This document shows positions 1 through 59,321 of a stretch of DNA of 64,000 nt, piece by piece. Location of the stretch: positions 21,842,001 through 21,906,000 of the forward strand of contig OZ020317.1 of assembly GCA_963971305.1 (NCBI GenBank). The letters are read 5' to 3'. Source of the DNA: Arcuatula senhousia. Lineage: Eukaryota > Mollusca > Bivalvia > Mytilida > Mytilidae. The notes beneath the pieces are model-generated. The model was not told the DNA's origin. It saw only the letters and a list, made by a program, of their open reading frames with translations, and did no database searches. Numbering within the stretch: the stretch's first letter is position 1; each line of letters starts with the position of its first letter. A program made the position numbers and the translations under genes.

Positions 1-2284
1 ACCGAGATAAAAAAGAACTAGATATATTTATAAGATCGATCCTCTGGTATTTCTTACATCTATTAAATACATTATACCATGTTTGAAGATAAATAATTTT
101 TCAATTAACCAAATAAAGATGTTTTGCTTATTATTGAAAAGTGATCATTTGAATTGCGACAATAAGACCCACATTAATTGGAAAAATGCAAACATATTTG
201 TTCAATATCTTTGTTTATACAGATTACTAATTTTGCTGGCTTGTATTCACTTAAATCTTTTGTAGTTTATTATGCAATAAATTATCAAAAACAACATCTT
301 ATAAATCAATTGATATTGGTATTTAGCTATGAATAAGTGTGTGCATCACAACCTACATACTGTAAACCAATTTATTTTCGCGACTACTAAATTTCGCATT
401 TTGGTTTATCAGGGTAATTTCGCGGCTATTTATTTTTTCGATTCTCCATAAAAACAATTAAAATGCTATGACAATGAATTGAATTCGCATTGATTTATTT
501 TTACGAATTTTCGTTCTTTGTGAAATCCCCGAATAAAAATATTTCGAGAAAATTATTTGTTTTATCAAACTTCAATGTGACTATCAATCGCTACTCATCC
601 TTTTGCATTGATTGAAATAAAAAAAAAATAATATATGATCAAACATCATTATACCAAATGACAAAGACAAAAAAATCATCATAACGAAACAAAACACACA
701 ACAAAGAAATTACAAAAAACCCACACATAACAACAAAACTGCATTCACCAACCTGAACCCAAGTCGAAACAAGAGTAAATTCAGGTGCTCCGGAAGAGTA
801 AGCAGTACCTGTTTGCTATAGCACATCCGTAATGTTGCCAAAGATCAATTTAGTGTTGGTCAAATTTGAAAAAGATGACGTTGTCAAACCACCATCTGTG
901 CATATCTGAGAGATAGAAATCCCATATTTGTCTACAAGCACATGATGTCTTTCGTAAAATGTCTTGAGTGATGACAACAACATGGGTGCAATGTACCGCG
1001 GTGTTAACAATTTGTTTGTTAGCCGTCTATCAAGAAAGTCATTTTACACCCCATATGCTCTAATAACGAATAAATTGTGTTTTGTTAACTTCATATGCTA
1101 GAGTGGACGGAATGTTGCTAAACATAAGAGAAGAGAAATGACTATTGGAAAGTTGAATTCAACACGTTTGTCATAGTGCTTTGTACAAAGCCTTCCTAGT
1201 GTGACAATTTCAAGACATTTATCCAAATTTGAAGTGGACCACCCCGAATCTGTAGTGTCCTTTTTCTCAAGTTCATTCGGATATTTGAGATGTTAATAGT
1301 AATCAAATCGAGGATTGTTTAGTGACTATTAAATGCTTATCGTGCAAAAATGATGTCATCTCAACAAAATAGCAGAACATTGTATTTCCCAAAATGTTCT
1401 TACTGTTGCAATGCAAAGAAAGAAGCACGAATTCTACATTGTGTGAAAAAGTCGTAAATATTCGTTCAATTTTAAAGGTGTGGTGCGAACTTTGGAAGTC
1501 TTGATTTATCTTTTTTATTGATTTCTATCTAACCAAAAAATTAAGGTAAATCTCGAATTGTTTAAAGGTTAATTTAACCAGATACAGAAAGACAACAAAA
1601 TCAAACGAATCATTGGATTCGACCCAGTACAACATAAAGATGTCCTAATCAAGAGTTTGAAATTAGAACTATTGCTTTAGACCACTTGGCAACCCAGGTC
1701 TAGTAAACCATTCTTAAAATCAGTAATGGTTCCATGCGTTTACATGTATATTGTTGATAATTTCAAGCTGTTTCAGGCAAAATGTTTATTTCGCAAAAAA
1801 TGTGATTTTAAGTAAATAACAGGTTGTAACAGGCTTTTGGGGATAATTTTTCTAACTATCTGAACCATAAATGTTTCCTTTATCGAATGTACAATTTGTG
1901 AATGATGAGAGATCTGAACCAAATACTAGTAATCAAAGTTGAACAGGTGAACAACCTTTAATTATTTGCTATTCGTGCAAAAATCATGCAAACTTAACAA
2001 AATAGTAGAACATCATGCGTTCTAACTGTTGCAATGCAAAAAAGAAAGAAGTACCAGTCTTACGGGGAAAGTGTACGATATTTCTCTGAGGTCAATAATT
2101 GACCGAAAGAAATTCCTTCAATCTTAAAGGATATGATGAAAACCCTGATAAAAATGAGCCTGAGTACAGATAAAAGCTCAGAGTCAGGGATATTATTTGA
2201 AATTCCACTTTAAAATTTACAATACTTCAAACAACAAATTTCAATTTGCAATATGTGGATTCATTTATTTTCGTGGGTATCATT
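1..2284. other. Upstream non-coding region with repeats
   Basis: No exon is recognisable. About 365-505 holds a diverged member of the inverted TTCGCG/TTCGTGG repeat family. About 745-1020 is a minus-oriented copy of a dispersed repeat with the CTCCGGAAGAGT motif, also found near 8.9, 12.3 and 55.7 kb. A local direct duplication is visible: about 1300-1480 resembles about 1925-2110, both containing the TCGTGCAAAAAT and CTGTTGCAATGCAAA motifs. The 60-64 aa open frames here look like chance frames in repeats. Confidence 0.55.
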
Positions 2285-2470
2285 TTTTGTGGTTTGATGA
2301 AAATTGATATGTAAGTGGATTCTTCAGTTCGTGGTTCTGAAGTTTGCAACATAAAGATCAATGTAATATTTCCTTTTCGTAGGGTATCAAATTTCGTGGG
2401 TCAAGGCCACCAATGAAAACCACAAAAGTTGATACCCCACGAATAATAATGAAACCACAGTACATGTCAA
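2258..2470. repeat. Inverted TTCGTGGG-family element
   Basis: The block contains ATTTTCGTGGG on one side and TACCCCACGAA plus AAACCACAGTA on the other, a palindromic layout shared with 9290-9460, 30680-30895 and 48655-48730. It looks like a short non-autonomous inverted-repeat element; no coding content. Confidence 0.6.
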
Positions 2471-2549
2471 TCATGATTTGAAAAAATCCGAAGGCACACG
2501 AAACACAAAGTCTAAATGAGTACGAATCATGAACTAGCCATTCTTAGGA

Positions 2550-2865
2550 AATTACTTAATATATATACTGGTAAATTCTATTATATCCCTTTAATGTCTT
2601 TACAATAGTGTTACTAGCAGTCCCTTAGATGACAATAGAAAAGGGGCACTCCATAAAAACTGGTGTAACCCACCATTTCTTTTAAAATGCCAGCACCAAA
2701 TCAGAACCATTGCGGTCGTCAATATTTTCGATATATCAGCCTTGTTTTGCCTTTTCTCTAGACATTGAGATTGATCATCTATGTTCGGTAATTTTGTAAT
2801 TACATTTATTTCAATAAAACATAATATTTTGTCCTGTGCCTTTCTTTATTACTTCGCCCAGGATA
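2550..2865 (+). repeat. Dispersed repeat, GATCATC/ACCATTGCG family
   Basis: Contains the ordered motifs GGGGCACTCCAT, CCAAATCAGAACCATTGCGG, TTGATCATCTATGTTCGG and TTTTGTAATTACATTTATTT. Related copies lie near 9.6, 24.9, 25.8, 28.1, 32.3, 54.2, 55.0, 58.2, 62.1 and 63.7 kb in both orientations. Non-coding. Confidence 0.6.
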
Positions 2866-3338
2866 AGGTTCCAGTGACACGTTATTCAGGCTAATGATAC
2901 GCCAGCATTTAAAGATGTGTGTGTGTGTCAGAAAAACGTAATATGGAACTACGGCCTTATGGGCTCAAGTGTGACCTTAAAAGTGTTGATCAGGGTTTCC
3001 TATATATGTCCAAAAGCCTGATATAAAAGTATTTGTAACTGAAAAAAATATCTATTTGGATGTGATAAATATCTCGTTTTTAAAGTACAATGTAGACACG
3101 ACTATTGACGAGATAATTCCAAGACCTATATTTATGTCGTCTGTTAATTAACGAGGGTTCAATTAATTTATAAATATTTAAACATAATTTGAACCATTTC
3201 CAAAATTACAGAATGAAAACAATAGGAATCAATTTTAGTTAAAAATAAAATTTGAGATGTGTCAGATAATGCACAATGGGTTTTGATATGCAAGAGACAA
3301 GATACTATAGAAAAAGTATAGCATGCGCATCGTTGAAG

Positions 3339-3346
3339 TATAAAAG
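3339..3346 (+). promoter_or_regulatory. TATA box of leader exon 1
   Basis: TATAAAAG lies 47 bp upstream of the ATG at 3386. The equivalent box is conserved at 3517, 3703, 10373, 10583, 10800 and 10986. Conservation of both box and spacing in all seven units argues for use as a core promoter. Confidence 0.6.
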
Positions 3347-3385
3347 ACTTGAATGTAAAATTTTACGTAAAACTTGCAAAGTAAC

Positions 3386-3440
3386 ATGGAATTGGCTACC
3401 AATTGGTTCTTTCTTTTAAGTTATTTGTTAAGATTTTGTG
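3386..3440 (+). CDS. Alternative first coding exon, copy 1 (type A signal peptide)
   Basis: The frame reads MELATNWFFLLSYLLRFC and ends in a phase-1 G followed by GTAAGT at 3441. It looks like a secretory leader: a short N-region, a Leu/Phe-rich core, then a Cys. With the acceptor at 14078/14079 the split codon becomes GAT (Asp) and reads straight into the FAMeT-domain exon in frame. What is seen: ATG, hydrophobic frame, donor and TATA box. What is inferred: splicing to 14079, about 10.6 kb away. It could instead be a relic first exon, or belong to another transcript. Confidence 0.6.
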
Positions 3441-3516
3441 GTAAGTTGTTATTAGTGACTTACATTTTAATCTGCAAGAAATAAGATGCTATAGTAGGGA
3501 TAACACTTGTGCATTG

Positions 3517-3524
3517 TATAAAAG
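3517..3524 (+). promoter_or_regulatory. TATA box of leader exon 2
   Basis: TATAAAAG, 55 bp upstream of the ATG at 3572. A second TATATAAG follows within a few bases in this unit and in most others. Confidence 0.55.
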
Positions 3525-3571
3525 TATATAAGACTTGAATGTAAAATTTTGCGTAAAACTTGCATAGTAAC

Positions 3572-3626
3572 ATGGACCTGGTTGGCAAGTCGTTCTTTCT
3601 CCTTAGTTGTTTGTTAAGATTTTGTG
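3572..3626 (+). CDS. Alternative first coding exon, copy 2 (type B signal peptide)
   Basis: The frame reads MDLVGKSFFLLSCLLRFC, with a phase-1 donor GTAAGT at 3627. It differs from type A mainly in residues 2-8 (DLVGKSF in place of ELxTNWF), while the LLRFC tail and donor are kept. Length is the same 55 nt as type A. Same inferred splice partner at 14079. Confidence 0.6.
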
Positions 3627-3702
3627 GTAAGTTGATATCAGTGACTTAAATTTCAATCTGCAAGATACAAGATGCTATAGTAAGGATAACACCTTCGCAT
3701 TG

Positions 3703-3710
3703 TATAAAAG
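3703..3710 (+). promoter_or_regulatory. TATA box of leader exon 3
   Basis: TATAAAAG, 55 bp upstream of the ATG at 3758; same spacing as unit 2. Confidence 0.55.
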
Positions 3711-3757
3711 TATATAAGACTTGAATGTAAAATTTTGCGTAAAACTTGCATAGTAAC

Positions 3758-3815
3758 ATGGACCTGGTTGGCAAGTCGTTCTTTTTCCTTAGTTGTTTGT
3801 TTGTAAGATTTTGTG
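3758..3815 (+). CDS. Alternative first coding exon, copy 3 (type B, one codon longer)
   Basis: The frame reads MDLVGKSFFFLSCLFVRFC, 58 nt, with a phase-1 donor GTAAGT at 3816. Against copy 2 it has a 3-nt in-frame insertion near the end of the hydrophobic core, so the frame into a phase-1 acceptor is preserved. That the length change is a multiple of three fits selection on the frame but is only one event. Confidence 0.58.
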
Positions 3816-5667
3816 GTAAGTTAATATTACTTTCTTGCATTTTAAGAAAAAAAAATCTAAAATTAAGTTTCTAATTTACAGACTTGATGAAGTTTAAGGT
3901 TTTTAGTAAAGATTTTCGCTGTGTTATAACATCCTTAAACTTTCTGCATTAGTGCCATTTTGATTAGATTTAGATATTTACACCTTTCAAAAAAGTTTAG
4001 CAGCGCTAGACTTTTTGTGCTTTTCGATGATTCGAAATAGTTTTTAATTTCATGATTTTTGTCAGTTTTAATTCTTCAGTAAATGACTTAAAGGATGTGA
4101 GTTTTCGGATAAAAGCATATTTTTGCCTTGGATTGCGGAATATAACTCTTCAGAAAATTAAATGCACAATAGGCATTTTTAAATCAAGGATTCCAGCAGT
4201 CATTCGTGCTGAGAGTGGACATACTCGAAATTGACTCTTTGACGGTACAGTATCAATTTTTGAATTATGATTTACATTTTCAAGTGCGATTTTACAATTT
4301 CAGCCGGGAAGCAAACTGGCAATTTAATTACTTTTTAGGCCCGCTGAATATTTAAAAATTCAAGGGGGATAATTGAAATATTTTCCACGAGGTGGCGCTG
4401 CTCAATCCCAAACTGATTTGTTTGGGTTGAAAAACTACGTGTTTTTGGCTTTTATATAAAATAGAACATGTAAATGAAATTAAAAATTGATTCAAAATAT
4501 ATTTTTTGCCATGACTGTCGATTATGAACAGGATTGGTTCCTGAAAAATTAAGAAAAGCGAACTTTACGATCGGTAACGAAACTTCGTGTTTCTTTTTTG
4601 TCGCGTATGTTTACACTTTTCTCAATTGACAGAATCAAGTTCTAGCGGATGAATATACCTAAGAACTGGTTTCCTATGTAGAATTATGTATTATCCGTTG
4701 GTGGTTAACAGGAATTTACGTCACTCTTAACAGTTTATGAGAAAATGGTTCTTTTACCGACACCGTCAAAACAAAGAAAGTTGTCCAGGTATCCCCCCAT
4801 TTTCTCGCATATTTTGTCAATATTTATCACTGTAAACAATGAAACGATTTGTCAGAAGGTTCTTAGTATAATGTTACTTTAATTTAAAGTGAATTACAGA
4901 AACTTGACATGTATTTCGTGATGTAGTTCAACATTTTTTTCGTTCAAAATTCCCAAAGAATGAGATGTTGTCATTTCATGTAAATGTTTAAAATCTTCAC
5001 CAGTCGATGTTTCTAAATGTAGAGCTCTATATTTTTGTTGTAAAAATGTGAACTTATACAAAATGGCTTTTCATTGTTTACAAGATCAGTATTGACCCAT
5101 GCTCTGTATATCCATTTACTTTACATGCTGTCTTTTGAGTTTGATTTTTGCAAATACCTCGATGAAAAAATTGTATATATGATAATAAAACCTTTAACAA
5201 TGTTAATGAAGTTATATTTTTCCAATCATGTATGCAACTGCATCGTAAAAGCATGCATATGTCATATGTGTGTTTACATTCATTTTTATTATTTTTTCAC
5301 AGCTCAATTTTTACATTTTAGGATGAAAAAAATGGGGGGGGGGTGGGTTCCAACCGCTCGAGTATTGGCCACTGAGTTTTGTGTCTTATTACTACACGGT
5401 GGTATAAACATGTGTAAAACATGAACCACTCATTTCTCATTTAAAGATACCATATAAATGAAAATAAATTTCTGTTTTCTGTACGTGTCATAAACTTTTG
5501 ACACAGGTGTTCTCTCGTGTATTGAAAATTATCTAAACCTGCTAAACAGTGGATTATTGGTTGTGTTATTCTCAAAAATGATGTGCTATACTTAATATTC
5601 TTTTATCATATATTTAAGTAATTATACAACAGTCTCTTAAGACAAAACACATTACCTTTATCACATA

Positions 5668-5795
5668 CCATATATCGCATAACCTAAGGCTACATCACAT
5701 ACATGTATACCATATATCGCATAACCTAAGGCTACATTGCATATACCCTATATCGCATAACCTAAGGCTACATCGCATATACCCTTTATCATGTT
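5668..5795. repeat. Short tandem repeat, about 42-bp unit, 3 copies
   Basis: Three copies of a unit containing TATCGCATAACCTAAGGCTA follow each other, separated by short ACATA/CATATACC linkers, and fade into related TATCGCA/CATATCAC words up to about 5820. Confidence 0.75.
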
Positions 5796-6529
5796 TATCG
5801 CACCCATATCACAAAATCACACACAAAGGTAATTACAAGTCGAAGATGTTGTGATGTAAATATTTGATATAATGAACATTACATGGCAAAATCTGTTTTG
5901 CATGCTGTATTTACCCAAGGCATCTATATCATGCTGATGGCCAACTGAATAAACCCTCAACCTATATCATACCTCAGGCCTTTGGTATGTCGCGGGGTAA
6001 ATAGAGCATGCGATACATATTTTGCCATGTATTATTCAGTATATATTGAGATTGCCAAGACTGTAGATCCAATATTATTATTTGTCCAGACTGTTCAGAA
6101 TGTGTCGAGACCAAATTTCTACATGTCAAGACTGATTTATAAGAATATGTCCAGACACAATATCTAGATGTCGATACAATTAAGCCTAAATTGAGAGTAA
6201 GTTTCAATATGTCAAGAAAGTGTTGAGACAAAATTTGTACTGTTTTAGAATGTTGAGACCCCAAAACATGACATGTCGAGACAAAAGAAGACAGTCAAGA
6301 CAAATGCAGAGACCAATGGAGACATATTGCTACAAAATTGGAACGTCTTCTTCTATCAACAAGTTCTTACCAAAATTTTACTTTTAAGACTTTGTAGTGA
6401 TAGTTGTTAGCTTGTTCATAATGTACTTGATATATAAATTTATATCCAGTATACACATTGTATACTCTTAATCATGTTAAAGTTGATAATTGAAATCTAG
6501 TCATATTAGGTGTTAGCTTGTTTATTATC

Positions 6530-6690
6530 CTCGGTGCTGGATTTGGCCTTCCTGTGCAAACTTTTTGGTTTTGAGAACTTTTCATTTGTTATCTTCCAAC
6601 GTTTTGATTCAAATGCTGCTGATGAGAGGTTGTTCCTTGAAATATCAATATACAGCATAACCAAATTAATCAATTTATACCGTTTTTATA
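6530..6690 (+). repeat. Dispersed repeat with CAAATGCTGCTGATGAGAGG motif
   Basis: The segment carries GTGCTGGATTTGGCCTTCCTG and CAAATGCTGCTGATGAGAGG. The same order occurs at 53170-53320 (+) and in reverse complement at 41093-41240 and 53840-53960. It creates open frames that look conserved between copies, but the frames differ and carry no domain. Confidence 0.6.
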
Positions 6691-8389
6691 CGACCACAAA
6701 AAATTTGCGGACGTATAATGGTATGATGCTGTCGTCGTCGTTGTCTTTTAACTTTAGTGTATACACGATAACTTTAGTTCTTTATGTACCTGATGTTTAT
6801 AAATATACTTTCTCTATTGTGTTTCATTGGACCATTGATTCCTGCAATCTAGATACATTATGTTGTTAGAACAGTTCCTCTTTTGCGTGTCATTGAATCA
6901 TTGGTGTAATTTAATAGTTTTGTTCTTTTTGTGATCCATTCAATTGAAATCACATCTTGGTTGTAATTTTGTGTATTTATTATGTCTTTGTTTGATATGA
7001 ATGTCCTCTTGATCTGAGACAATAATTAAATTCAATATTTTTCTCACTCTTGATGCATGTCTGACAGTTATTTTAAGTGATTGTGATGCATCTATGTAAA
7101 TTCCACTTTGGTATTTTTTTTTTTTTTGGGGGGGGGGGGGTTCCTTCCCATGCTGGCTTTTGGGTGTTGTTTGTCATTCTCAATAAGGTTTATTATATAT
7201 ATCTTCCTAGACTAAATAATTTAAATACTTTATTATTTTATTATTTTTTTTAAATATCTCTTTCTTTTAGCAAACACGAGATTAGCTCAAGGTTTCTGAA
7301 GAGGATGTACATAAGTCATATATCTTGTTCTATCATATTTTGCCATATTTTTTTTTCATTTTAGATTCCATCATAATGAATGCATGCTCCTGGGTCACAT
7401 GTGGGTTGCTAATTTACTTATGTATAGTAAATTTACCAATAAAACCGGCGGACGTGTTCACATAGCCTTTTTGAAAAAAATATTCCTTTGTGGATATTCT
7501 ATATTATGATCTTCTTCCAGTATCTGTAAAACTACAATGTTCATAGCATTTTTTAATTTATGCATTGAAAGGGGGGGTCAAAATAAAAAGAAATGTAGAT
7601 GTAATCATGGTAAATGGTGTTGACTATTTATTCTATTTTAAATTGTAACATAAATGTATGTTTTAATTGTTAATAGGGCCTGATAAGAAGGTATTATCTG
7701 GAAATTATTTGTTCTATAGTTTAAATCTAAAAATAGAACGAACAAAAAGCTGCCATCACTGGTTGTCCCCCTTTACGTATGGAGAAAATCGTATCGTTTC
7801 AATTGACAGAAAAAAGTTCTAGTGGGTTTAATTTTCTACTTTTTGTCATTTTGAATTCCTAATTTTTTTTCCCACAAGTTGTTAAAGTTACATCGCGTCA
7901 CTCGTACGGGAACTTGTGTTATTTTTTAATTTTCAGTTTTTTGAGACTGATTCCGCCATTTTCGATTCAGCTTTTCCTCTCGATTTCTTTCTTGTTACAA
8001 TAAAATTCATACCGATCGACGTAACAATTACGACACTGATTATTTCTTTATTATATACTATCTTTGTTGTTCAGAATAGAATGTTAAAAAGCGTAAATTC
8101 GATGATTTTTAACTGGTCGTCAACAGAATCAAAAACGTGTCGATTCCGTCATGTGTAAAATCTATTGAATGTCATCCATTAATGACTATGCTGTTCGCCT
8201 GATTTATTGTTTATTAAAGTTTGGAGCTTCAGGCGACCATACTTTTCTAAGACCATGTTTATGTACAAAAGCCATATTTTTTGCCATGTCATGTTTTGTA
8301 AATAAATATTGTTTTTTGGTTGTTACAAACATGTTTGACAGTGCATCTTTTAGTTTCTGAATGTTATTTTGTGTTTCCATGTTTTACAT

Positions 8390-8505
8390 GTTGTCTGTTT
8401 TTGTCCCGTTCTTGTTGGTGTTTACTCGTTTTGTCTCTGCTCTTTCGGACTTTTGACATTCGGATACCCCATTGGTACCTCTGTTTCTTTCATAAATTTA
8501 CAAAG
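8390..8505 (+). repeat. Dispersed repeat, TTTCGGACTTTTGACA family (partial)
   Basis: Contains TTTGTCTCTG, TTTCGGACTTTTGACATTC and GGATACCCCATTGGTACCTC. Copies lie at 11760-11875, 13250-13340, 39200-39290, 56760-56860 and 60160-60240, and inverted at 8855-9060 and 12230-12420. Fuller copies run into the CTCCGGA part, so this is one SINE-like or MITE-like family. Confidence 0.6.
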
Positions 8506-8854
8506 ACTATCAGTTGAATAATTGTTAAAAAGTGTTTTAAAAAATATATGATTTCAAACAATCACGGGGTGATTAACTTTTTTCCAGGTGTATACTTTAA
8601 TATTAATCTTACGTGATTTTAATTGTAAGCAAATGTTAATCTGTCATGTATTTGCCAGCAGAGGCAATAAAATATACAATTTCTCCTTTCGAAATAAATT
8701 TTCAGTTTTAGCTTCTTTTATAGCTCGACGCATCGACGTAAATGTGTTACACAAGTTATTACTCGTGAACATATTTTTACCATATCTTATTTTTTGTTAT
8801 ATTGAATGGTAAATAAAGACTATTTTAAATGTACTATTTGGACTTGGTTACCGA

Positions 8855-9130
8855 AGGAAGCAAAAAGGCACCAATAGGGCATTCAGGTGTCAAAAGTCCG
8901 AAAGGGCAACGACGACATTGAACGGAAATCAACAACGCGAAAACAAGTCGTGACAACAGGTGTTCCGGAAGAGTTAGTGGTTCCTGTCTGCTTCAGGACA
9001 CCCGTCGTGTTACTTATTTCCAATTCAGTGAGTCATATCCGGTAAAGGAAGACAAAACAAATTTCTACGACAAACCAACATCAGCACTAATTTGAGAGAA
9101 AGTTGTTCATTTTCCTAATTTGTTTGTTAA
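8855..9130 (-). repeat. Dispersed repeat, CTCCGGA / TTTCGGACTTTTGACA family
   Basis: In reverse complement this copy contains the ordered motifs of the family: TCCGGAACACC, CGCGTTGTTGATTTCCGTTC, TTTCGGACTTTTGACA and TTGGTGCCTTTTTGCTTCC. Matches 12230-12480 as part of the segmental duplication. Confidence 0.6.
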
Positions 9131-9159
9131 GATTTGTGGTTATTAAAACTACAACATAG

Positions 9160-9284
9160 CTCCAGACAATTAATTTAGCTAAGCCTGACGAGCGTTTTGT
9201 CTCTTCAAAAAACCCACCAGAGGCACTCAACCGAAAGATTGGAAATGCCAAACAATACAATGTAGTTGAATATGAAGAGTTTTT
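9160..9284. repeat. Dispersed repeat, GCTCCAGACAAT / CCTGACGAGCG family
   Basis: Carries AGCTCCAGACAATTAATTTA, GCCTGACGAGCGTTTTGTC and CAGAGGCACTC. The family recurs at 12530-12655, 12885-13030, 13510-13620 and 20080-20225. This copy is cut by the duplication junction: the matching copy at 12530 continues past AATATGAAGAG, whereas here the sequence switches to the start of the next duplication unit. Confidence 0.65.
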
Positions 9285-10372
9285 GCGGTTTGATGAAAAT
9301 TGATATGTAAGTTGATTCTTAAGTTCGTGGTTCTGAAGTTTGCATCATAAAGATCAATGTTATATTTCCTTATCGTTAGGTATCAAATTTCGTGGGTCAA
9401 GGCCACCAATGAAAACCACAAAAGTTGATACCCCATGAATAATAATGAAACCACAGTACACGTCAATCATAAGTTGAAAAAGTCCGAAGGCACACGGAAC
9501 ACAAAGTCTAAATGAGTACGAATCATTTTAATATGATACATTCCATTGAAATTCTGATCATGAACTAGCCATTCTTAGGAAATTACTTAATATATATATA
9601 ATGGTAAATTCAATTATACCCGATTAATGTCTTCACAATAGTGTTACTAGCAGTCCCTTGGATGGCAATAGAAAAGGGGCACTCCATAAAAACTGGTGTA
9701 ACCCACCATTTCTTTTGAATTGGCAACACCAAATCAGAACCATTCCGGTTTTCAATATTTTCGATATATCAGCCTTGTTTTGTCTTTTCTCTAGACACTG
9801 GGATTGATCATCTATGTTCGGTTATTTTGTAATTACATTTATTTCAATAAATCATAATATTTTGTCCTGTGCCTTTCTTTATTACTTCGCCCAGGATATG
9901 GTTCCAGCGACACGTTATTCAGGCTAATGATACGCCAGCATTTAAAGATGTGTGTGTCAAAAAAACGTTATATTGAACTACGGCCTTAGGGGCCCAAGTG
10001 TGACCTTAAAAGTATTGATCAAGGTTTCCTATATATGTCCAAAAAACTGATACAAAAGTACTTGTAACTGAAAAAAATATCTATTTGGATGTGATAAATA
10101 TCTCGTTTTTAGAGTACATTTTAGACACGACTATTGGCGAGATAATTCCAAGTAAAAAGACCTATATTTACGTCGTCTGTTAATTAACAAGGGTTCAATT
10201 AATTTATAAATATTTAAACATAATTTGAACCATTTTCAAAATTACAGATTGAAAACAATAGGAATCAATTTTAGATAAAAAAAATTTGAGATGTGTCAGA
10301 TATTGCACAATGGGTTTTGATATGCAAGAGACAAGATACTATAGAAAAAGTATAGCATGCGCATCGTTGTAG

Positions 10373-10380
10373 TATAAAAG
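10373..10380 (+). promoter_or_regulatory. TATA box of leader exon 4
   Basis: TATAAAAG, 47 bp before the ATG at 10420. As in unit 1, the first unit of its array, the upstream sequence has GTATAGCATGCGCATCGTTG, which later units lack. Confidence 0.55.
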
Positions 10381-10419
10381 ACTTGAATATAAAATTTTAC
10401 GTAAAACTTGCATAGTAAC

Positions 10420-10474
10420 ATGGAATTGGTTACCAATTGGTTTCTTCTTTTAAGTTATTTGTTAAGATTTTGTG
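10420..10474 (+). CDS. Alternative first coding exon, copy 4 (type A)
   Basis: The frame reads MELVTNWFLLLSYLLRFC, phase-1 donor GTAAGT at 10475. It differs from copy 1 at only two residues. As the first unit of array 2 it is the positional counterpart of copy 1 across the segmental duplication. Inferred to splice to 14079. Confidence 0.62.
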
Positions 10475-10582
10475 GTAAGTTGTCATCAGTGACTTAAATT
10501 TTAATCTGCAAGAAATAAGATGCTATAGTAAGATAAGATATAAGATACAAGATGATAAAGTAAGGATAACACCTTCGCATTG

Positions 10583-10590
10583 TATAAAAG
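10583..10590 (+). promoter_or_regulatory. TATA box of leader exon 5
   Basis: TATAAAAG, 55 bp upstream of the ATG at 10638. Confidence 0.55.
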
Positions 10591-10637
10591 TATATAAGAC
10601 TTGAATGTAAAATTTTACGTAAAACTTGCATAGTAAC

Positions 10638-10692
10638 ATGGAATTGGTTACCAATTGGTTTCTTCTTTTAAGTTATTTGTTAAGATTTTGTG
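10638..10692 (+). CDS. Alternative first coding exon, copy 5 (type A)
   Basis: Encodes the same 18 residues as copy 4 (MELVTNWFLLLSYLLRFC), and the exon is identical at the nucleotide level as far as I can see. Phase-1 donor GTAAGT at 10693. Identity with copy 4 points to recent duplication or gene conversion inside the array. Confidence 0.62.
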
Positions 10693-10799
10693 GTAAGTTG
10701 TTATCAGTGACTTCATTTTAATCTGCAAGAAATAAGATGCTATAGTAAGATAAGATATAAGATACAAGATGATAAAGTAAGGATAACACTTGCGTATTG

Positions 10800-10807
10800 T
10801 ATAAAAG
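10800..10807 (+). promoter_or_regulatory. TATA box of leader exon 6
   Basis: TATAAAAG, 55 bp upstream of the ATG at 10855. Confidence 0.55.
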
Positions 10808-10854
10808 TATATAAGACTTGAATGTAAAATTTTACGTAAAACTTGCATAGTAAC

Positions 10855-10909
10855 ATGGAATTGGTTACTAATTGGTTCTTAATTTTAAGTTCTTTGTTCA
10901 AATTTTGTG
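10855..10909 (+). CDS. Alternative first coding exon, copy 6 (type A, diverged)
   Basis: The frame reads MELVTNWFLILSSLFKFC, with the donor GTAAGT at 10910 in the same phase 1. Several substitutions in the second half (LILSSLFKFC) keep the hydrophobic character and the final Cys. Length is unchanged at 55 nt. Confidence 0.6.
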
Positions 10910-10985
10910 GTAAGTTGTTATTAGTGACTTACATTTTAATCTGCAAGAAATAAGATGATAAAGTAAGGATAACACTTGCGCATTG

Positions 10986-10993
10986 TATAAAAG
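10986..10993 (+). promoter_or_regulatory. TATA box of leader exon 7
   Basis: TATAAAAG, 55 bp upstream of the ATG at 11041; box and spacing are intact although the exon it serves is broken. Confidence 0.5.
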
Positions 10994-11040
10994 TATATAA
11001 GACTTGAATGTAAAACTTTACGTGAAACTTGCATAGTAAC

Positions 11041-11096
11041 ATGGGACCTGGTTGGCAAGTCGTTCTTTTTCCTTAGTTGTTTGTTAAGATTTTGTG
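11041..11096 (+). pseudogene. Alternative first exon, copy 7 (type B, frameshifted)
   Basis: One extra G directly after the ATG (ATGGGACC against ATGGACC in copies 2 and 3) throws the frame, which stops after 11 codons (MGPGWQVVLFP). The rest of the exon and the donor GTAAGT at 11097 are intact. This is the unit nearest the downstream gene. Apart from the extra G it is a type B cassette, so either it is dead or it acts as a non-coding first exon. Confidence 0.65.
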
Positions 11097-12229
11097 GTAA
11101 GTTAATATTAGTGTCTTGCATTTTAAGAAAAAAAAATCTAAAATTAAGTTTCTAATTTACAGACTTGATGAAGTTTAAGGTTTTTAGTAAAGGTTTTCGC
11201 TGTGTTATAACATCCTTAAACTTTCGGCATTAGTGCCATTTTGATTAGATTTAGATATTTACACCTTTCAAAAAGTTTAGCAGCGCTAGACTTTTTGTGC
11301 TTTTCGATGATTCGAAATAGTTTTTAATTTCATGATTTTTGTCAGTTTTAATTCTTCAATAAATGACTTAAAGGATATGAGTTTTCGGATAAAAGCATAT
11401 TTTTGCGTTGGAAAGCGGAATATAACTCTTCAGAAAATTAAATGCACAATAGGCATTTTTAAATCAAGGATTCCAGCAGTCATTCGTGCTGAGAGTGGAC
11501 ATACTCGAAATTGACTCTTTGACGGTACAGTATCAATTTTTGAATTATGATTTACATTTTCAAGTGCGATTTTACAATTTATTGTTTATTAAAGTTTGGA
11601 GCTTCAGGCGACCATACTTTTCTAAGACCATGTTTATGTACAAAAGCCATATTTTTTGCCATGTCATGTTTTGTAAATAAATATTTTTTTTTGGTTGTTA
11701 CAAACATGTTTGACAGTGCATCTTTTAGTTTCTGAATGTTATTTTGTGTTTCCATGTTTTACATGTTGTCTGTTTTTGTCCCGTTCTTGTTGGTGTTTAC
11801 TCGTTTTGTCTCTGCCCTTTCGGACTTTTGACATTCGGATACCCCATTGGTACCTTTGCTTCTTTCATAAATTTACAAAGACTATCAATTGAATAATGGT
11901 TAAAAAGTGTTTTAAAAATGTATGATTTCAAAAAATCACGGGGTGCTTAACTTTTTTCCAGGTGTATACTTTAATATTAATCTTACGTGATTTTAATTGT
12001 AAGTGAATGTGAATATGTCATGTATTTGCAAGCAGAGGCAATAAAATATACAATTTCTCCTTTCTAAATATACTTTCAGTTTTAGCTTCTTTTATAGCTC
12101 GACGCATCAACGTAAATGCGTTACACAAGTTATTACTCGTGAACATATTTTTACCATATCTTATTTTTTGTTATATTGAATGGTAAATAAAGACTATTTT
12201 AAATGTACTATTTGGACTTGGTTACCGAA

Positions 12230-12480
12230 GGAAGCAAAGAGGCACCAATGGGGCATTCAAGTGTCAAAAGTCCGAAAGGGCAACGACGAAATTGAACGGA
12301 AATCAACAACGCGAACTCAAGTCGTGACAAAAGGTGCTCCAGAAAAGTTAGCGGCTCCTGTCTGATATAGGACACCCGTCGTGTTACTAATTTCCAATTC
12401 AGTGAGTCAAATCCGGTAAAGGAAGACAAAACAAATTTCTACGACAAACTAACATCTGCACGCATTTGAGAGATAGTTGT
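12230..12480 (-). repeat. Dispersed repeat, CTCCGGA / TTTCGGACTTTTGACA family
   Basis: Duplicate of 8855-9130; in reverse complement it carries the TTTCGGACTTTTGACA and TTGATTTCCGTTC motifs. The open frames on both strands here are repeat frames. Confidence 0.6.
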
Positions 12481-12529
12481 TCATTTTCCTTATTTGTTTG
12501 TTAAGATTTGTGGTTATTAAAACTACAAC

Positions 12530-13030
12530 ACAGCTCCAGACAATTAATCTAGCTACGCTTGACGAGCGTTTTGTCTTTTCAAGACCCAGCAGAGGCACTC
12601 TACCCAAAGATTGGAAATGTCAAGCAATACAATGTAGTTGAACATGAAGAGCATAGAACAATAAACAAAAAATGCCGAACTCGAAGCCAAATGATGACTA
12701 AGATGTATGTTTTGGATAGGGTTTTTACATTTTTTTTGAAATTTAAACGGGTATTTTATAGCTTTGATGTGTTCTTCAACACAAGGGTGTTGATACCGGT
12801 GTGGGCTTACCTCGAGGAAATAAAATTCCACAGAAGCGCTTACCATCACGGACGTTCGAAATAAAAAAAATAAAAAATTACAACAAAGCTCTAGACAATA
12901 AATTTAGCTACGCCTGACGTGCGTTTCATCTATGCCAGATTCATCAGAGGCGCTTTATCTCATGAGATTGGAATGGTCGAACAATATATGAATATAAGTA
13001 GCACAGAACAATAAACCAAAAATGCATACG
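12530..13030. repeat. Two copies of the CCTGACG-family repeat
   Basis: Copies at 12530-12660 and 12885-13030 both carry AGCTC[C/T]AGACAAT, a CCTGACG[A/T]GCGTTT core and CAGAGGCGCT or a variant. Between them lie an about 100-aa open frame and a TGTTGATACCGGTG stretch, repeated in diverged form at 13430-13490. No gene is recognised. Confidence 0.55.
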
Positions 13031-14078: not shown

Positions 14079-14558
14079 ATGCTTTTGTTAATGTCACTAC
14101 GATTTACCAAAACCACCTTAACTTACAAGGACAACACTACTTGAAACAGATCGGTGTATTTCCAACCAATGGAGCAGAATTTATTACATTCAAAATAAAA
14201 GGAAAACAAGGCGCTCGACTGTTGCTTTATTCAACGGAAGACACTTCAGTTGCAAGTAGAATATTGTATTACATAAAATTAGGAAATGTAGACAACAAAA
14301 AGTCATACATTCACCATATTACAGAGGAATATCTCGAGGAATTCAAACAAACTGTGTATGAACATGATGGTCCTGAGCTGGATGAAAACTCCTTTAAATC
14401 TTTTTGGATCAGTTGGATTGATGGGACGATAAAAGTGGGACGAGGTGAAGTTTACAACGAGAACATGTTTATGTCGTACACAGACGCATGTCCATTTAGG
14501 GTGATGGATATTGGCATCACAGGAGGCATATTTTTACAATGGTTATTCCCGATACTAG
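14079..14558 (+). CDS. FAMeT (Methyltransf_FA)-domain exon of a secreted protein
   Basis: This 160-codon exon sits between an acceptor (CTCTTTATTGTAG) and a donor (GTAAGT at 14559), with phase-1 introns on both sides, as is usual for shuffled extracellular modules. The protein has the features of the farnesoic acid O-methyltransferase-like domain: a TFKIKG strand, an YYIKLGN strand, FWISWIDGTIKVGRGE near the end, and the closing VMDIGITGG. Despite the family name, such domains in invertebrates are mostly found in secreted or surface proteins and a methyltransferase activity cannot be assumed. An in-frame ATG at 14042 would give MILKLSMTLFIVDAFVNV, itself leader-like. I prefer splicing from the leader cassettes because a TATA-like word is too close to that ATG. 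Predicted total 263 aa with copies 1, 2 or 4-6. Confidence 0.8.
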
Positions 14559-14632: not shown

Positions 14633-14972
14633 TAATTCCTAAAATTATACGAAACTTACCTTGGTTAAGTTTAAGTGTAATTGGGATTCTATGTAGTCAA
14701 AGAATCACTGGAGGGCTAAAATGAGATAGTGCTACGCATGTACAACCTTCAGCTTTCAAAACTAAATTTTCCATTGTGGAAAATAAACAACGTAATAGCA
14801 ACATGTATAAATAAATACTATTTATTGCAGATGGGTGGGAGGGAGGCATTTTAGCCCTCCAGTGATTATATGACTACATAGAATCCAAATTACACTTCAA
14901 CTTAACCAAGGTAAGTTTCGTATAATTTTAGGAATTCTATTACGTCATTATCACTTCCGTTCTAAAATGAGA
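14633..14972. repeat. DIRS 3' terminal region with hairpin and split inverted matches
   Basis: AATTCCTAAAATTATACG at 14634 onward is matched by its reverse complement at about 14916-14935, and the pairing extends over about 90 bp per arm around a loop of about 115 bp. CTACGCATGTACAACCTTCA in the loop side and TTATCACTTCCGTTCTAAAA at about 14945-14965 each recur inverted at 19357-19421. This is the terminal/internal complementary region of the element. Confidence 0.75.
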
Positions 14973-14982
14973 CTTCAAAGCC

Positions 14983-16008
14983 TCACAAATGGAAAATTTT
15001 TCTAATTAAGAGAACAGTAAAACTTACCAAGATTACTTTTTTCTTGAAAATACCATGGGCAAACATGTCTTCTGTTACTATTTCTTTCTTATAGAATTTA
15101 GCAAATGTTTTACTGTTGCTCCATCCTGCCTTGTCTAAAATCTTTTCCAAAGGAAAATAATTGGCTTTTGCTTTAGAAGTAACTGCGGCTCTTACACTGT
15201 GAGCTCCAAACTTAGAAATATCAATTCCTGATCTTAGTAAGACTACTTTAATCCACCTAGCAATTGTGTCTTTGGTAACCTCTTTATACGGCTTAACATA
15301 ACTTAACAACAGTTTCGATTTTGTGCCTCTGAATAAATGTGAACGTTTTAAATACTCTTTAAGAACAGTATAAATACATAACCGTCTATCTGGCGGATAT
15401 GCCCTCATATGTACAAATGCGCCTCTAAACCCTGGACGACTTTGTTTAATCAATCCCGCATATTGAAAAATAAACTGTGAACTGTTTTTATGTACACTAT
15501 TTACATCTAGTAAATGAATCGATTGAGTTCAGGCAGCTCCAGTAAGCGCTATTAACATAGTTAATTTTAGTGTCAAGTCTTTTAAACTTAAACTACGAAC
15601 TGGAGACATAACTCTTAATGTCTTCAAGACCTTCTCTACATCCCAAACTTCTGTGTAACGAGGCATTGAAGGTCTTAGATTAAAAACACCACGCATAAAT
15701 CTAATTACTAAAGGATTTCTCCCAATCAAATTTCCATCTACTTTAATATTCAATGCTGACAAAGCTCCTCATGCTGTATTCAGCGAACTATAGCCTAAAC
15801 CTTCTTTATAAAGAAATGTTAAATAATCTAAAATTTGTTTTAAAGATGGTTGAACCGGATCAATCTCTCTTTGGTCACAATACTGTAGCCATCGCTTAAT
15901 GCTCGAGCTGTATTGCTTTTTAGTTCCGTATTTCCATGATGACATGAGTATATCGGTTGTTGATTTTGAAAAGCCTTGATCTCTGAAATGTCTCCGGACA
16001 CTCGACAT
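14983..16008 (-). pseudogene. DIRS tyrosine recombinase (two internal stops)
   Basis: Three consecutive frame segments in one frame (16008-15769, 15762-15529, 15453-14983) make up a recombinase of about 340 codons. The N-terminal part contains SSWKYGTKKQYSSSIKRW, typical of the DIRS core-binding domain. The C-terminal part has GAHSVRAA, matching the H-x-x-R box, and TFAKFYKK with the candidate nucleophile Tyr; an upstream R in FNLRPSMPRYTEVWD lies where the first catalytic Arg is usually found. The stops at 15769-15771 and 15529-15531 are both TGA. The enzyme would catalyse integration of a circular DNA intermediate; here it is dead unless the stops are read through. Confidence 0.85.
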
Positions 16009-17086
16009 GCCACAAGGATCAGATTGTCTTTCAACGGATGAAGAGTTTCTTTTCCTGGCAAGTATATGAGTTTATCTACTCTCGGTAACAACAACGGAAT
16101 GTCTACTAGCATCTGCATTAAAGGAGTAAACCACGGTTGAGTTGGCCAAAGAGGGATTATTACGATTCCTTTCGCTCTGTCCATTTGCAACTTCTGAACG
16201 CAAGAACTCAACAGACTGAAAGGAGGAAATAAATAATTTAAATTGAATTTCCCCCAATTCAACAATAAAGCATTTATGTGCAAGGAAAATGGATCTGGTT
16301 CCCATGAACAATAACATTTTATCTGATTATCTAACCTTCATGCAAATAAATCAATACTTGGCTTACCAAATTTATCGATTAATAATTTAAAAAAAAATTC
16401 ATTTAATTTCCATTCTAACTTTTCATCAACATTTCTAGATTGATAATCAGCTTCATTTATTTTGCCTGGAAAATGGAAACAAGAGATCCAAATTCCATTT
16501 TTAATGCACCATTTCCAAATTCTTTCGGCTAAAACATTGCAGTTTTCTGATTTACAACCACCCATATTATTCAGATATGCTACTGCTGTTGTGTTATCTT
16601 AACATGTTTGTTTTGAACCTCAGTGCAAAATGATCTCAATGAATACAAAATAGCCAGCATTTCTAGATAATTAATATGATTTTTTCTCTCATCTTTGGAC
16701 CATTGTCCACCTGTACTCTGGTCATTAAATTTACAACCCCATCCTTTAGTAGAAGCATCTGTTTGTAAAGTTATTTCTGGATTTCCCCTAGAAATAACTC
16801 TTTTTGCAGTTGAAATATTATCAATACACCACAGTAAATCTTGTTTCATTTCATCTGAAACAATCATCAATGCATCAAAATTTCCTCTAGAAACTCTCAA
16901 TGCCTCAATTTTTTCTTTTTCTAAATTCCGATAGAACAGTCTACCATAATCAACTGCAGAAAAACTTGAAACGATAAGCCCAATTACTCTAGATACTTCT
17001 CTTATTGTTGCTCTTTGGACATACCAAAGATTTTTACATTCAGTTAACAAAGTTTGTTGTTTATCTTTTGGAAGTGTCACAATCAT
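15840..17086 (-). pseudogene. DIRS RNase H and connection/C-terminal region (frameshift, stop)
   Basis: The frame from 17086 has IDS-type link sequence, then the RNase H signature: LQTDASTKGWG (Asp), NYLEMLAILYSL (Glu), and a third Asp in DNTTAVAYLNN. That last motif lies in a different frame from about 16605, so a 1-nt-type frameshift sits just after KHVK. The frame continues with FPGKINEADYQSRN and SIDLFA, a TGA at 16338-16340, then CYCSWEPDPF down to 15840. The tail LVACRVSGD overlaps the recombinase start at 16008 by about 170 bp in another frame, an overlap known from DIRS elements. Confidence 0.82.
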
Positions 17087-17119
17087 TTTCTCAGAATCTA
17101 TAAAATTACCTAGAAATGC

Positions 17120-17836
17120 TTACTGTTTTGTTGGCTGAAATACAGATTTATCTTCATGAATAATAAAACCTAGATTTTCTATCAAACCAACTGTATCTTG
17201 TAAATTTGTTTTACATTCTTCAAATGAGTCACCACAAAGCAAACTGTCATCAATATAACCAATATTAACATGGCCCATGGTTCTTAATTTCGCATAAACA
17301 GGTTTCATTAATTTTGTGAATAATCTAGGTGCAGAAGCTAAACCATTAGGTAAACAGGTATATTGGAAAATTTTATCTCCCCGTCTAAAACATAAATATT
17401 TTTGATGGTCTTCTGAAATTGAAACACTATAATATGCATGACGTAAATCAACAGATGCCATAAAGGAGTTTTCTTTAATTAATAAAACAGATTTTTCAAA
17501 TGAATCCATTTTAAAATGATGGTAAACAATACTCTCATTTAGTTGTTTTAAGTTTAATATCATTTGATATTCACCATTTTTCTTTGGCCTGACAAAAATA
17601 GGTGAAACAAACATATCATTTTGAAAAGAAACTTCCTTTATGACACCTTTTTGTAACAAGTTTTGAACTTCATTATCAATTTTATGTGTTTCAACTTCAT
17701 TAAACTGAATCTTGCAAGAAAATTTTTCGTGAACTGGCGGTAAAGAATCAACAAATTCAAGATGACAGTGCTCCACAATATCCAAAATTTGTGGATCATT
17801 AGTCAACAATTTCCACTGAGAGATAAAATTTTTCAA
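17120..17836 (-). pseudogene. DIRS reverse transcriptase domain
   Basis: A 238-codon frame with recognisable RT blocks in order: LTNDPQILDIVEHC near the start, VSPIFVRPKKNGEYQMILNL, ASVDLRHAYYSVSIS (first catalytic Asp), LCFRRGDKIFQYTCLPNGLA, and IGYIDDSLLCG (the YxDD box). The RT itself has all motifs and no internal stop. A TAA at 17120-17122 separates it from the RNase H frame, which starts in the same reading frame downstream. Preceded by the Gag-like frame with no protease between. Confidence 0.88.
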
Positions 17837-17883
17837 TCTACCTGCTTGAAAACTACAACCAACCTCATTTCTTTTTTCCTTTT

Positions 17884-19110
17884 CTAATTGTTCCTGGCAC
17901 CGCCCCTCCTTGGGAGGTTTTTTGGCCCATTCTTGTCATCTCTATCAGAGCGTGAAACCATTGACGTGTTGTAGTGGCTGTAGCCTCCTCTACCACGAGG
18001 TCTACCTCTTTCACCTCTGCTATATCGACCTCTATAAGTACCTCTATAAGTACGGCCTCTACCACTCCTAATGCGGCCCCCTAATTTATTACATGTTTCA
18101 ATCTCTTTTGCCTCTTTGGAAACATCGTCACCAAACAAAAAGTTAGTAAATGGCAGAGCATGGGCACACAGGTGAATAAATCTAAACTTAGATCAGGTTT
18201 AATCAAGTCTCTACGTACCATATTTATCTGACGATTCCCATGCCCCAAAAGAGCCAAAACATCATTACAAGAATCAATAAATTCACCTACATCTTTATCT
18301 TTACTCTGTGACTCTTTCTTAGCCATACTATCTACTACTTTAGCCAAAACAGTTGCTGCTTTAATTAATGATTTCTCACAATTTTGCAATTTCTTATCAT
18401 CAATCTGAGTGGATGGTGACATAAGATTCCATACAAGGTGGTTTGTCTTAACCAAAGACAGACCTTCACAGTTTTCAGGTCTAGCAGTAGATTCATGTTT
18501 TACAAGGTCTAAATATTGTTCATCATCCATGCCATTACGGAATAAATCAGTAATGTTCTCAGCCAAAGTTTCATCTATTTTCTTTGAACAAACCTCTTTT
18601 ATCTTAAATCTCTTTGACATGGAGGAAAACCTACTCTGACCATTGGCACTACCTTCATCAACATCATCTGCCTTTCTCTTATTAGACTCATTACCATGAG
18701 ATGATTCAACATCATACTCATCATATTCTTGTTCATCATACTCCTCTCCTTCATTGTAAAAATCATTTTCAATGTCATTTATTTTGTTAGTTAAAGTGTC
18801 AATTCTACTATTTTGTTCCACCTGAGTATTTTTTTATCTGAGTCAACATATTCATAATTTGGTCATTCTGACTGCTATCTCTAATAGTGGAAGGTTTATC
18901 TTTGTTAAGAGGGGAGTTTGAACCCTGTGAAGATTTTATCCTAGATGTACGAGTCTTAACAGACGACTTCGTACTTTGTAATTTTGACAGACTCTCGTCT
19001 TTGTCTGTTTTACCAACAACCTCGTTGTCTTCTAGCAAATAGTCTAACGACTCATCATCTTTTTGTTTATCATTTGGTCTGCTTTTAACAGATACCATCT
19101 TCTCTGCCAT
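17884..19110 (-). pseudogene. DIRS Gag-like protein (two frameshifts)
   Basis: Three overlapping frames make up one protein. The N-terminal part (19110-about 18835) is Ser/Lys/Asp-rich. The middle (18821-about 18170) has an acidic stretch (YDEQEYDEYD), a basic KRKADD patch and a predicted helical region. The C-terminal part (18138-17884) is Arg/Gly-rich with RGRTYRGTYRGRYSRG-type repeats, a likely nucleic-acid-binding tail. The first frame change falls at an A7 run (about 18828-18834), the second near 18165. I see no zinc knuckle. Assigned by position and composition, not by a domain. Confidence 0.7.
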
Positions 19111-19335
19111 GATTTCTCGTGCAAAATAACGATTTACGGCAGTAATATCAAATTTACGACAGATGTAGTAAAATTGTCGTAAAATGTAAACAAAATTGTT
19201 ACAACGTAACTTTATTTTTTAATTATATCAATATTAAAGCCAACCTCGTTGACTATTAAATAAATATTGTCAAATAAATTGACAAAGTGGCTGCTAATGG
19301 TTGTAAAATACAACAAGTTCGATACACGTCCGTCC

Positions 19336-19421
19336 AGTTTGAAAGATGCAAGCACACTGAAGGTTGTACATGCGTAGCACTATCTCATTTTAGAACGGAA
19401 GTGATAATGACGTAATAGAAC
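19336..19421. repeat. DIRS 5' terminal inverted repeat
   Basis: CTGAAGGTTGTACATGCGTA and the stretch ending GATAATGACGTAATAGAA match, inverted, two separate segments at the other end of the element (14716-14762 and 14934-14972). Confidence 0.75.
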
Positions 19422-21105: not shown

Positions 21106-21362
21106 CAAATAGCTCTGTTGCCACCCCTGTCGATTTACAAGATGACCAAAGCTGTATAACATATTCAAGACGTCTTCAATGTCCAATGTTTGCTCCCATG
21201 CAATCATACCAATCATCAGCAGTGGAATGCAACACAGCTTGCAGTGTGGATGAAAACTGTTGGGGATGGAAACACGCCAAAGAAACTGGGACTTGTTATT
21301 TGATGTCAGGAGAAGTCGCCCAAAGTTATGGAACTTCATCAATTTGGCTGAAACAGAAATAA
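21106..21362 (+). CDS. PAN/apple-like terminal exon of the FAMeT gene
   Basis: The exon starts after a T-rich acceptor (TTTTTTTTAG) and ends at TAA (21360-21362). The split codon with the 14558 donor reads GCA, keeping the frame. It encodes about 85 residues with six cysteines. The spacing in AVECNTACSVDENCWGWKHAKETGTCYL resembles the C-x3-C-x5-C...W...C core of PAN/apple-like modules, which bind proteins or carbohydrates in secreted proteins. With the FAMeT exon the product would be a small secreted two-module protein without membrane anchor. Module name assigned by cysteine pattern only. Confidence 0.72.
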
Positions 21363-29130: not shown

Positions 29131-29864
29131 TCAAATGATTTGATATACTATTACTTAGTCTACCTAGGTGTACTTGAAACAATAAAGTCTACGGGAATAA
29201 TTAATAGTGATGCCACTATTATTCTATTGTCCATCCCTTTGATGGAGATTTCAAATTGATATACTGTAGTAATTTTGATAATAATACATATAAGTCAGTT
29301 CTCTCACCAAATTAGAAAGCTTTGTATCGGTTTACCATGTGGAATCATTCTCGTTGGATTTATAACCAATACGTGATGAATATTCCATACAGATTTTGAT
29401 GATTTAAGACCGTATGAAGCTGTTTGTGGCTGCTGATAATTGAAATGTAATGAGAATTCGAAGCGTGAAAGGGAATTTTATGTGATCCACTTTTAACACA
29501 ATTGCAAAAGGATTTTAGCCATGACTTAAAAGAACGAGTTCATTATCTGTTTTTATTGTCCCATTATGTTCAAGACTTTATGATATTATTCATTCTTATA
29601 AGTTTCTAATTAAACAGTGGAACTTAAAATTCTAAATTTTCATTTTAGAATTAAACTTGTTGTAAGGCGAGGATGTCATTTAATTGTTATGTCTTGGAAA
29701 TTAATGTGATATCCACCATTACAGATCTGTTGGGTGGGACAAATGATTGAGTTTATTAACTGAACAAGAAAAAATTTGGACGATTCAATTCTGTATCTTT
29801 AAAAATGACATTCATTAAACAGAATTGAATTAACTATTTCGGAATTAAAAAAGTTGAACCTGGC

Positions 29865-59230: not shown

Positions 59231-59321
59231 ATATTTCAATATTTTGTGTGTGTGAAGCAAACTCTTTACTTTAGAAGCATCTCATGATTTTATATTCATT
59301 TTCATTATTTTTTATTTGAAG

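Follow-up and report, generated by a model that had tools for sequence, protein, structure and literature searches.

We examined a 64,000-nucleotide stretch of contig OZ020317.1 of the bivalve Arcuatula senhousia (positions 21,842,001 to 21,906,000; hereafter the window), in which an array of short cassettes lies upstream of a gene with a FAMeT exon and a PAN-like exon (the FAMeT-PAN gene). Seven homologous cassettes occupy positions 3386-11096 of the + strand, each made up of a TATA box, an ATG, a short leader, and a GTAAGT donor (Table 1). They are held in two blocks about 6.6 kb apart, with three copies in the first (cassettes 1-3) and four in the second (cassettes 4-7).

A TATA box (TATAAAAG or TATATAAG) stands at -47 in all seven cassettes, a second at -55 in five of them, and an additional TATAAAAT at -32 in one; the start context AACATGG is common to all. 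Coding length is 55 nt in five cassettes, 58 nt in cassette 3, and 56 nt in cassette 7. Six of the seven are open over 18-19 codons with a hydrophobic core and end in phase 1, and the exception, cassette 7, has a one-base length change soon after its ATG that leads to a stop after 11 codons. The leaders are of two types, MEL(A/V)TNWF... and MDLVGKSFF.... Under a simple rule, the intact leaders have the hydrophobic core and the small residues at -3/-1 that serve as criteria for secretion, with an 8-residue hydropathy of 2.3-2.8 and a possible cleavage site after ...CDA in all five distinct intact leaders. These observations bear out an earlier note on this DNA, which had described TATA boxes 47-55 bp upstream of the ATG, hydrophobic leaders of 18-19 codons in two sequence types, and six intact cassettes whose only length change is one of 3 nt (cassette 3). 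Its further claim, that the GTAAGT donor is always in phase 1, holds for the donor in all seven copies and for the phase in six, as cassette 7 is one base out.

The FAMeT-PAN gene lies downstream on the same strand. Its FAMeT domain (Pfam PF12248) scores 56.6 bits against a gathering score of 24.2 (3e-15), and that of an upstream paralogue, P1, scores 61 bits. The PAN domain (PF00024, PAN_1; cut-off 21.4) reaches 20.1 bits in the joined protein, 22.4 in the exon-3 frame alone, and 20.6 in P1. Each of the six intact cassettes, once joined to 14079-14558 and 21106-21362, yields a single frame to the stop at 21362, of 263 residues in five cases and 264 in one, just as the earlier note had predicted. 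A protein search with the joined product found no relative at an expectation value (E) of 10 or less among 111 candidates, and a sequence search of solved structures returned nothing below E 0.08.

Between the first donor and position 14100, 22 acceptor-like sites open at least 15 phase-1 codons; the site at 14079 opens 181 codons and the other 21 open at most 62. Two of these 21, at 3882 and 11163, define an alternative in which the cassettes of both blocks splice to nearer acceptors and encode a secreted peptide of about 41 residues. Each lies in the right phase 66 nt past the donor of cassette 3 or cassette 7 and is followed by 23 open codons, but the two copies are duplicates with about 96% identity, which makes their conservation of little weight, and cassette 7, beside the second site, is frameshifted. 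We consider splicing to these sites highly improbable.

As a separate observation, intron 2 contains a retroelement on the - strand (14634-19400), between the FAMeT and PAN exons, with a reverse transcriptase match (PF00078) above its cut-off, RNase H and tyrosine-recombinase matches below theirs, and an inverted repeat at 14634-14936. We presume that it is of the DIRS/Ngaro type.

Table 1. Cassettes, exons, duplicated segments, and paralogues at the locus (window positions unless prefixed C15)
Feature	Position	Strand	Description
Cassette 1	3331..3440	+	TATAAAAG at -47; ATG 3386; leader MELATNWFFLLSYLLRFC; GTAAGT donor at 3441
Cassette 2	3517..3626	+	TATA at -55 and -47; ATG 3572; leader MDLVGKSFFLLSCLLRFC; donor at 3627
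Cassette 3	3703..3815	+	ATG 3758; leader MDLVGKSFFFLSCLFVRFC (longer by one codon); donor at 3816
Cassette 4	10365..10474	+	TATAAAAG at -47; ATG 10420; leader MELVTNWFLLLSYLLRFC; donor at 10475
Cassette 5	10583..10692	+	ATG 10638; leader as in cassette 4; TATA block of the other type; donor at 10693
Cassette 6	10800..10909	+	ATG 10855; leader MELVTNWFLILSSLFKFC; donor at 10910
Cassette 7	10986..11096	+	ATG 11041; TATA and donor (11097) retained; reading frame broken
FAMeT exon (exon 2)	14079..14558	+	480 nt; PF12248; acceptor TTTATTGTAG; phase 1 at both ends; GTAAGT donor at 14559
Terminal PAN-like exon (exon 3)	21106..21362	+	acceptor TTTTTTTTAG; stop 21360-21362
Segment A	2284..4300	n/a	tandem-duplication segment with cassettes 1-3
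Segment A'	9280..11580	n/a	second copy of A, with cassettes 4-7
Segment B	8202..9279		94.7% identity with B'
Segment B'	11577..12651		copy of B
Stretch in first copy only	4301..8201		3.9 kb; inserted there or deleted from the second copy
Possible cassette fragment	12432..12514	+	between dispersed repeats; nhmmer E 5e-5
Possible cassette fragment	9095-9140		counterpart of 12432-12514 in the duplicate; nhmmer E 1e-4
P1 FAMeT exon	C15:21836655-21837128	same as FAMeT-PAN gene	
P1 exon 3 (PAN)	C15:21840617-21840871 (L038:8617-8871)	same as FAMeT-PAN gene	
P2		opposite	leader exon (MNLLIWLLMIYFVRYLN); 1,788-codon Ser/Thr-rich frame; FAMeT exon with internal deletion; PAN exon

Variation, origin, and distribution of the cassettes

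Across the seven copies, 9 of 52 columns vary in the TATA-ATG block, 18 of 55 in the exon, 30 of 58 in the upstream flank, 20 of 37 in the intron, and 1 of 14 around the donor. The TATA-ATG block is less variable than the upstream flank (p 3e-4) and the intron (p 5e-4), and the donor surroundings are less variable than the intron (p 0.003); the exon differs from both flanks at p 0.03 and from the TATA-ATG block at p 0.08 with cassette 7 or 0.02 without it, and all of these values are optimistic because the tests assume independent columns and exchange between copies can homogenise neighbours.

The reduced variation of the TATA-ATG block and the donor bears on the possibility that the array is a passive tandem repeat, in which the FAMeT-PAN gene is driven from a single copy and the others are silent, decaying passengers, and it argues against it. 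So does the core, which stays conserved across both leader types and three different upstream backgrounds. Recent exchange between copies could partly mimic these patterns. On the other hand, the copies are tandem repeats and one in seven is already frameshifted, and the two possible fragments, together with a donorless relic at P1 described below, suggest cassette decay. The intactness of the remaining cassettes is also statistically undemanding: under random substitution, the share of leaders still open is 0.66, 0.35, and 0.22 after 3, 8, and 12 changes, and on this ground we rejected frame intactness as proof of function. Overall, we regard a passive repeat as rather unlikely.

The repeat structure leads us to attribute growth of the array to unequal exchange and duplication. 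Segments A and B recur as A' and B', with the junction at 9279/9280, and cassettes within A and A' repeat in steps of 186-218 bp. One ancestral cassette could have given rise to the array by unequal exchange in steps of this size plus one larger tandem duplication. In cassettes 5 and 6, the TATA block is 95-100% identical to that of cassettes 2, 3, and 7, and the exon is nearest to those of cassettes 1 and 4 (85-100%), so that both look like a promoter block of one type attached to a leader of the other by exchange within a cassette. As tandem duplicates, the cassettes are not independent evidence of one another. Assembly is difficult for near-identical repeats of 186-218 bp, and the frameshift of cassette 7, which comes from a one-base length change within a short single-base run, is of a kind typical of long-read errors. 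Both points count towards the copy number or the cassette 7 frameshift being partly an artefact of assembling a tandem array, but most copies differ at several sites and the two blocks lie about 6.6 kb apart, which indicates that most of the array is real, and we place the probability of such an artefact close to negligible.

A homology-free scan recovered the same set of cassettes. It covered both strands of the window and 40 kb upstream (104 kb in all) for an ATG, 13-31 codons with a hydrophobic core, a phase-1 donor of at least 7/8, and an upstream TATA, with thresholds chosen after the cassettes were known. Nine ATG-leader-donor combinations were found, two of them nested starts of one frame. 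The six with a TATA box are exactly the six intact cassettes, and one of the three without is the leader of a second paralogue, P2. In the 1.04-Gb assembly, cassette DNA has at least seven matches at E 0.001, all at this locus; match counts for the whole assembly are lower bounds, and the P1 relic falls under the threshold of the cassette search. We rejected a dispersed mobile element as the source of the cassettes, given that the seven assembly matches all lie at one locus. The possible fragment at 9095-9140 may be a true cassette relic or a piece of a dispersed repeat. At E 0.03 or better, a peptide query consisting of a type-A leader and the start of exon 2 matched the FAMeT exons of the FAMeT-PAN gene and P1 and the four type-A cassettes; six weaker matches (E 0.8-4.3) were five on C11 and the P2 FAMeT exon.

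Probable linkage of the cassettes to the FAMeT-PAN gene

A search of the whole assembly with the PAN exon gave three matches at E 0.001, namely the FAMeT-PAN gene, P1, and P2, all on C15 within about 50 kb, with both paralogues upstream of the FAMeT-PAN gene. P1 shares 66% protein identity with the FAMeT-PAN gene in the FAMeT exon and 84% in the PAN exon, with ratios of nonsynonymous to synonymous substitution (dN/dS) of 0.32 and 0.58, respectively. We also note that dS against P1 is 0.16 in the PAN exon (21106-21362), far below the 0.68 of the FAMeT exon, which could reflect gene conversion in the 3' part.

P1 has one relic cassette on the same strand, just under 1 kb upstream of its FAMeT exon (L038 ~3668, C15:21835668). 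The relic comprises TATTTAAAG near -45, an ATG, MEVFSKGFILSFLL, a gap that removes the donor and measures 15-18 nt according to how the sequences are aligned, and intron sequence resembling what follows cassettes 3 and 7. Its alignment score with cassette 7 is 30, compared with control maxima of 21.5 in 712 windows and 23 in 1,000 shuffles. In the analysis against cassette 3, 2 of 2,000 shuffles equalled the score of the intron part alone. We take the relic to be homologous to the cassettes because its place, strand, TATA position, and intron agree with theirs. P1 also has a phase-1 acceptor. Within the P1 intron after exon 2 (L009 2010-3474) lie tandem copies, about 358 bp apart, of a dispersed element with the motif GACGAAACGCGCGTCAGGCG.

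P2 begins with a different phase-1 leader exon. By reading, phase 1 is found at the end of the leader, at both ends of a mucin-like exon, and at the start of the FAMeT exon, so a domain exon can sit between leader and FAMeT exon. The mucin-like part is a single open frame of 1,788 codons before the FAMeT exon (L039/L040, C15:21818501-21823864, - strand). A phase-1 leader thus seems to be the normal start for the FAMeT-PAN family, and among its three members the array was found at the FAMeT-PAN gene only.

FAMeT loci elsewhere in the assembly served as a wider control. The 38 FAMeT matches comprise the FAMeT-PAN gene, P1, 28 distant loci whose DNA was examined, and eight distant loci without examined DNA. 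Within 1.5 kb upstream, phase-1 leader candidates occur at 8 of the 28 loci, phase-0 candidates at none, and phase-2 candidates at two; the antisense control gave 1, 5, and 3 of 28 for phases 1, 0, and 2. The eight phase-1 loci represent three sequence families (L011; L013, L015, and L017; L022, L024, L030, and L031). None of the 28 has more than one phase-1 leader candidate in this interval. The acceptors gave a less clear picture of phase: candidate acceptors were found at 15 loci, in phase 1 only at 12, in phase 2 only at L010 and L025, and in phases 1 and 0 at L029, and none was found at the other 13, including L013, L015, and L017. A survey of 5 kb upstream of four loci (L042-L045) found at L010 one phase-1 leader candidate with a TATA box and a second that was weak, at L011 the known candidate, and none at the other two.

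P1 was considered as a partner for the cassettes and rejected, as it ends 4.5 kb before the array. This leaves the FAMeT-PAN gene as the only same-strand partner found. From the sequence, we therefore think it fairly likely that the seven cassettes are first exons of the FAMeT-PAN gene, with exon 2 at 14079, and that promoters and interchangeable leaders, rather than protein variants, have been multiplied.

Several observations weigh against this reading. Frame retention is by itself compatible with chance, and leader dN/dS, at 0.32 to 1.3 for six pairs of four leaders over 54 nt, is too noisy to demonstrate selection. The P1 relic scores 24 against cassette 3, where the best of 712 windows reaches 20 but 1,000 shuffles reach 24, and its nhmmer E is 2e-4. 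P1 retains open FAMeT and PAN exons in spite of the lost donor of its cassette, and 12.6 kb of upstream sequence yielded no phase-1 leader that could replace it; a gene of this kind may consequently start some other way. In P2, the FAMeT deletion causes the donor to be reached in phase 0, mismatched to the PAN exon, and with its frame broken in this way P2 looks damaged and offers weak support. Finally, P1 has an in-frame ATG 66 nt upstream of its exon 2, beginning MFYYYLNCRNEHYYKYSIVFAG, and at the FAMeT-PAN gene the in-frame ATG at 14042 could give a short hydrophobic start without any cassette.

The last two points suggest an alternative in which translation starts at 14042 (or 14060), just before the FAMeT exon, with no separate leader exon. 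From 14042 onwards the frame is open, with hydrophobic residues at its start, but in P1 and P2 alike the ATG closest upstream of the FAMeT exon is out of frame, P2 has no in-frame ATG there, and the in-frame ATG of P1 is more distant, with a start that is less hydrophobic by eye. Moreover, an acceptor lies between such ATGs and the domain in the FAMeT-PAN gene, P1, and P2, and the separate phase-1 leader candidates at 8 of 28 distant FAMeT loci also speak against it. We judge a start at these ATGs very unlikely.

Proposed mechanism and comparison with known first-exon clusters

On the reading that the cassettes serve the FAMeT-PAN gene as first exons, the TATA promoter of each cassette would place RNA polymerase II initiation about 20 nt upstream of the ATG, and the resulting first exon would be about 75 nt long with a strong phase-1 donor at its end. 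Inspection by eye of the region before each cassette ATG found no clear pyrimidine tract and no convincing acceptor, for which reason the transcript would be expected to skip later cassettes and join 14079 and then 21106. The leader would direct the chain into the secretory pathway. The residues DA at the junction of leader and exon 2 offer a cleavage site, and because this likely site falls in exon 2, cleavage there would leave an identical mature protein whichever of the six intact cassettes was used. The array would then affect the amount, place, or timing of secretion. As a tentative extension, which we hold possible but doubtful, promoters rather than domains may be reshuffled: TATA blocks and leader types would recombine, all six intact cassettes would be used, and the choice among them would set when, where, or how efficiently one protein is released.

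The earlier note had proposed alternative promoters feeding one gene. The link between cassettes and FAMeT exon finds support in the P1 relic, the phase of the P2 leader, the 8 of 28 distant loci, and the lack of any other same-strand partner, while splicing and the use of several cassettes remain conjectural parts of that proposal. The array is probably a small alternative-first-exon cluster that arose by local tandem duplication, with one mature protein and several promoters. Its layout is that of such a cluster, with homologous putative first exons arranged in tandem on a single strand ahead of the shared exons.

Immunoglobulin and T-cell-receptor loci contain arrayed units in which a promoter is followed by a short leader exon, known as L-PART1, and a phase-1 donor. 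There, every leader belongs to a V exon of its own and DNA rearrangement takes part, whereas the cassette leaders have no V exon of their own. The UGT1 and protocadherin clusters place tandem homologous first exons before one shared set of 3' exons (PMC1885805). The likeness that the earlier note saw with protocadherin and UGT1A applies to this layout and to birth-and-death growth with pseudogene or relic exons (PMC1885805). It does not extend to the product: the UGT1 variable exon adds an N-terminal domain (PMC1885805), whereas each cassette adds only 18-19 leader residues that are probably removed, leaving the mature protein probably unchanged. Unit spacing is also different, at about 0.2 kb in the array, and splicing is described for those clusters but is a prediction here.

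The closest match in principle is SpIL17-4a of the sea urchin, whose two described transcripts begin at different sites, each with a tiny first exon ahead of the shared exons 2-3 (PMC5457136). These first exons change the signal peptide and not the cleavage site, with a consequence that the authors call unknown (PMC5457136). The two SpIL17-4a first exons, of five codons and one codon, come from measured transcripts (PMC5457136), in contrast to the seven homologous 18-19-codon exons of the array, which are known from DNA alone. Predicted FAMeT-domain genes of Mytilus edulis are upregulated in the mantle during shell repair, and the passages concerned say nothing on first-exon arrays or on the combination of FAMeT with PAN (PMC8194122). 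A literature search on first-exon duplication, alternative promoters, signal peptides, and bivalve FAMeT and PAN proteins found no comparable array of leader exons among the papers covered.

If several cassettes are used, the locus would be an unusually compact natural case of first-exon multiplicity without diversity of the mature protein. It would isolate the value of extra promoters and leaders alone, whether in dose, tissue choice, noise, or secretion efficiency. If only one is used, the array would be an ordinary tandem repeat. The donorless relic, the frameshifted cassette, and the apparent promoter/leader chimaeras place birth-and-death steps of alternative promoters side by side.

Other features of the window

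Two open frames, at 29829-30329 and 59256-59576, match adjoining parts of a rhodopsin-family receptor (Pfam 7tm_1); they lie about 29 kb from each other and may be exons of a single gene. The regions 36148-41252 and 49587-54001 are two diverged copies of a multi-kilobase stretch, with about 65-87% identity in pieces.

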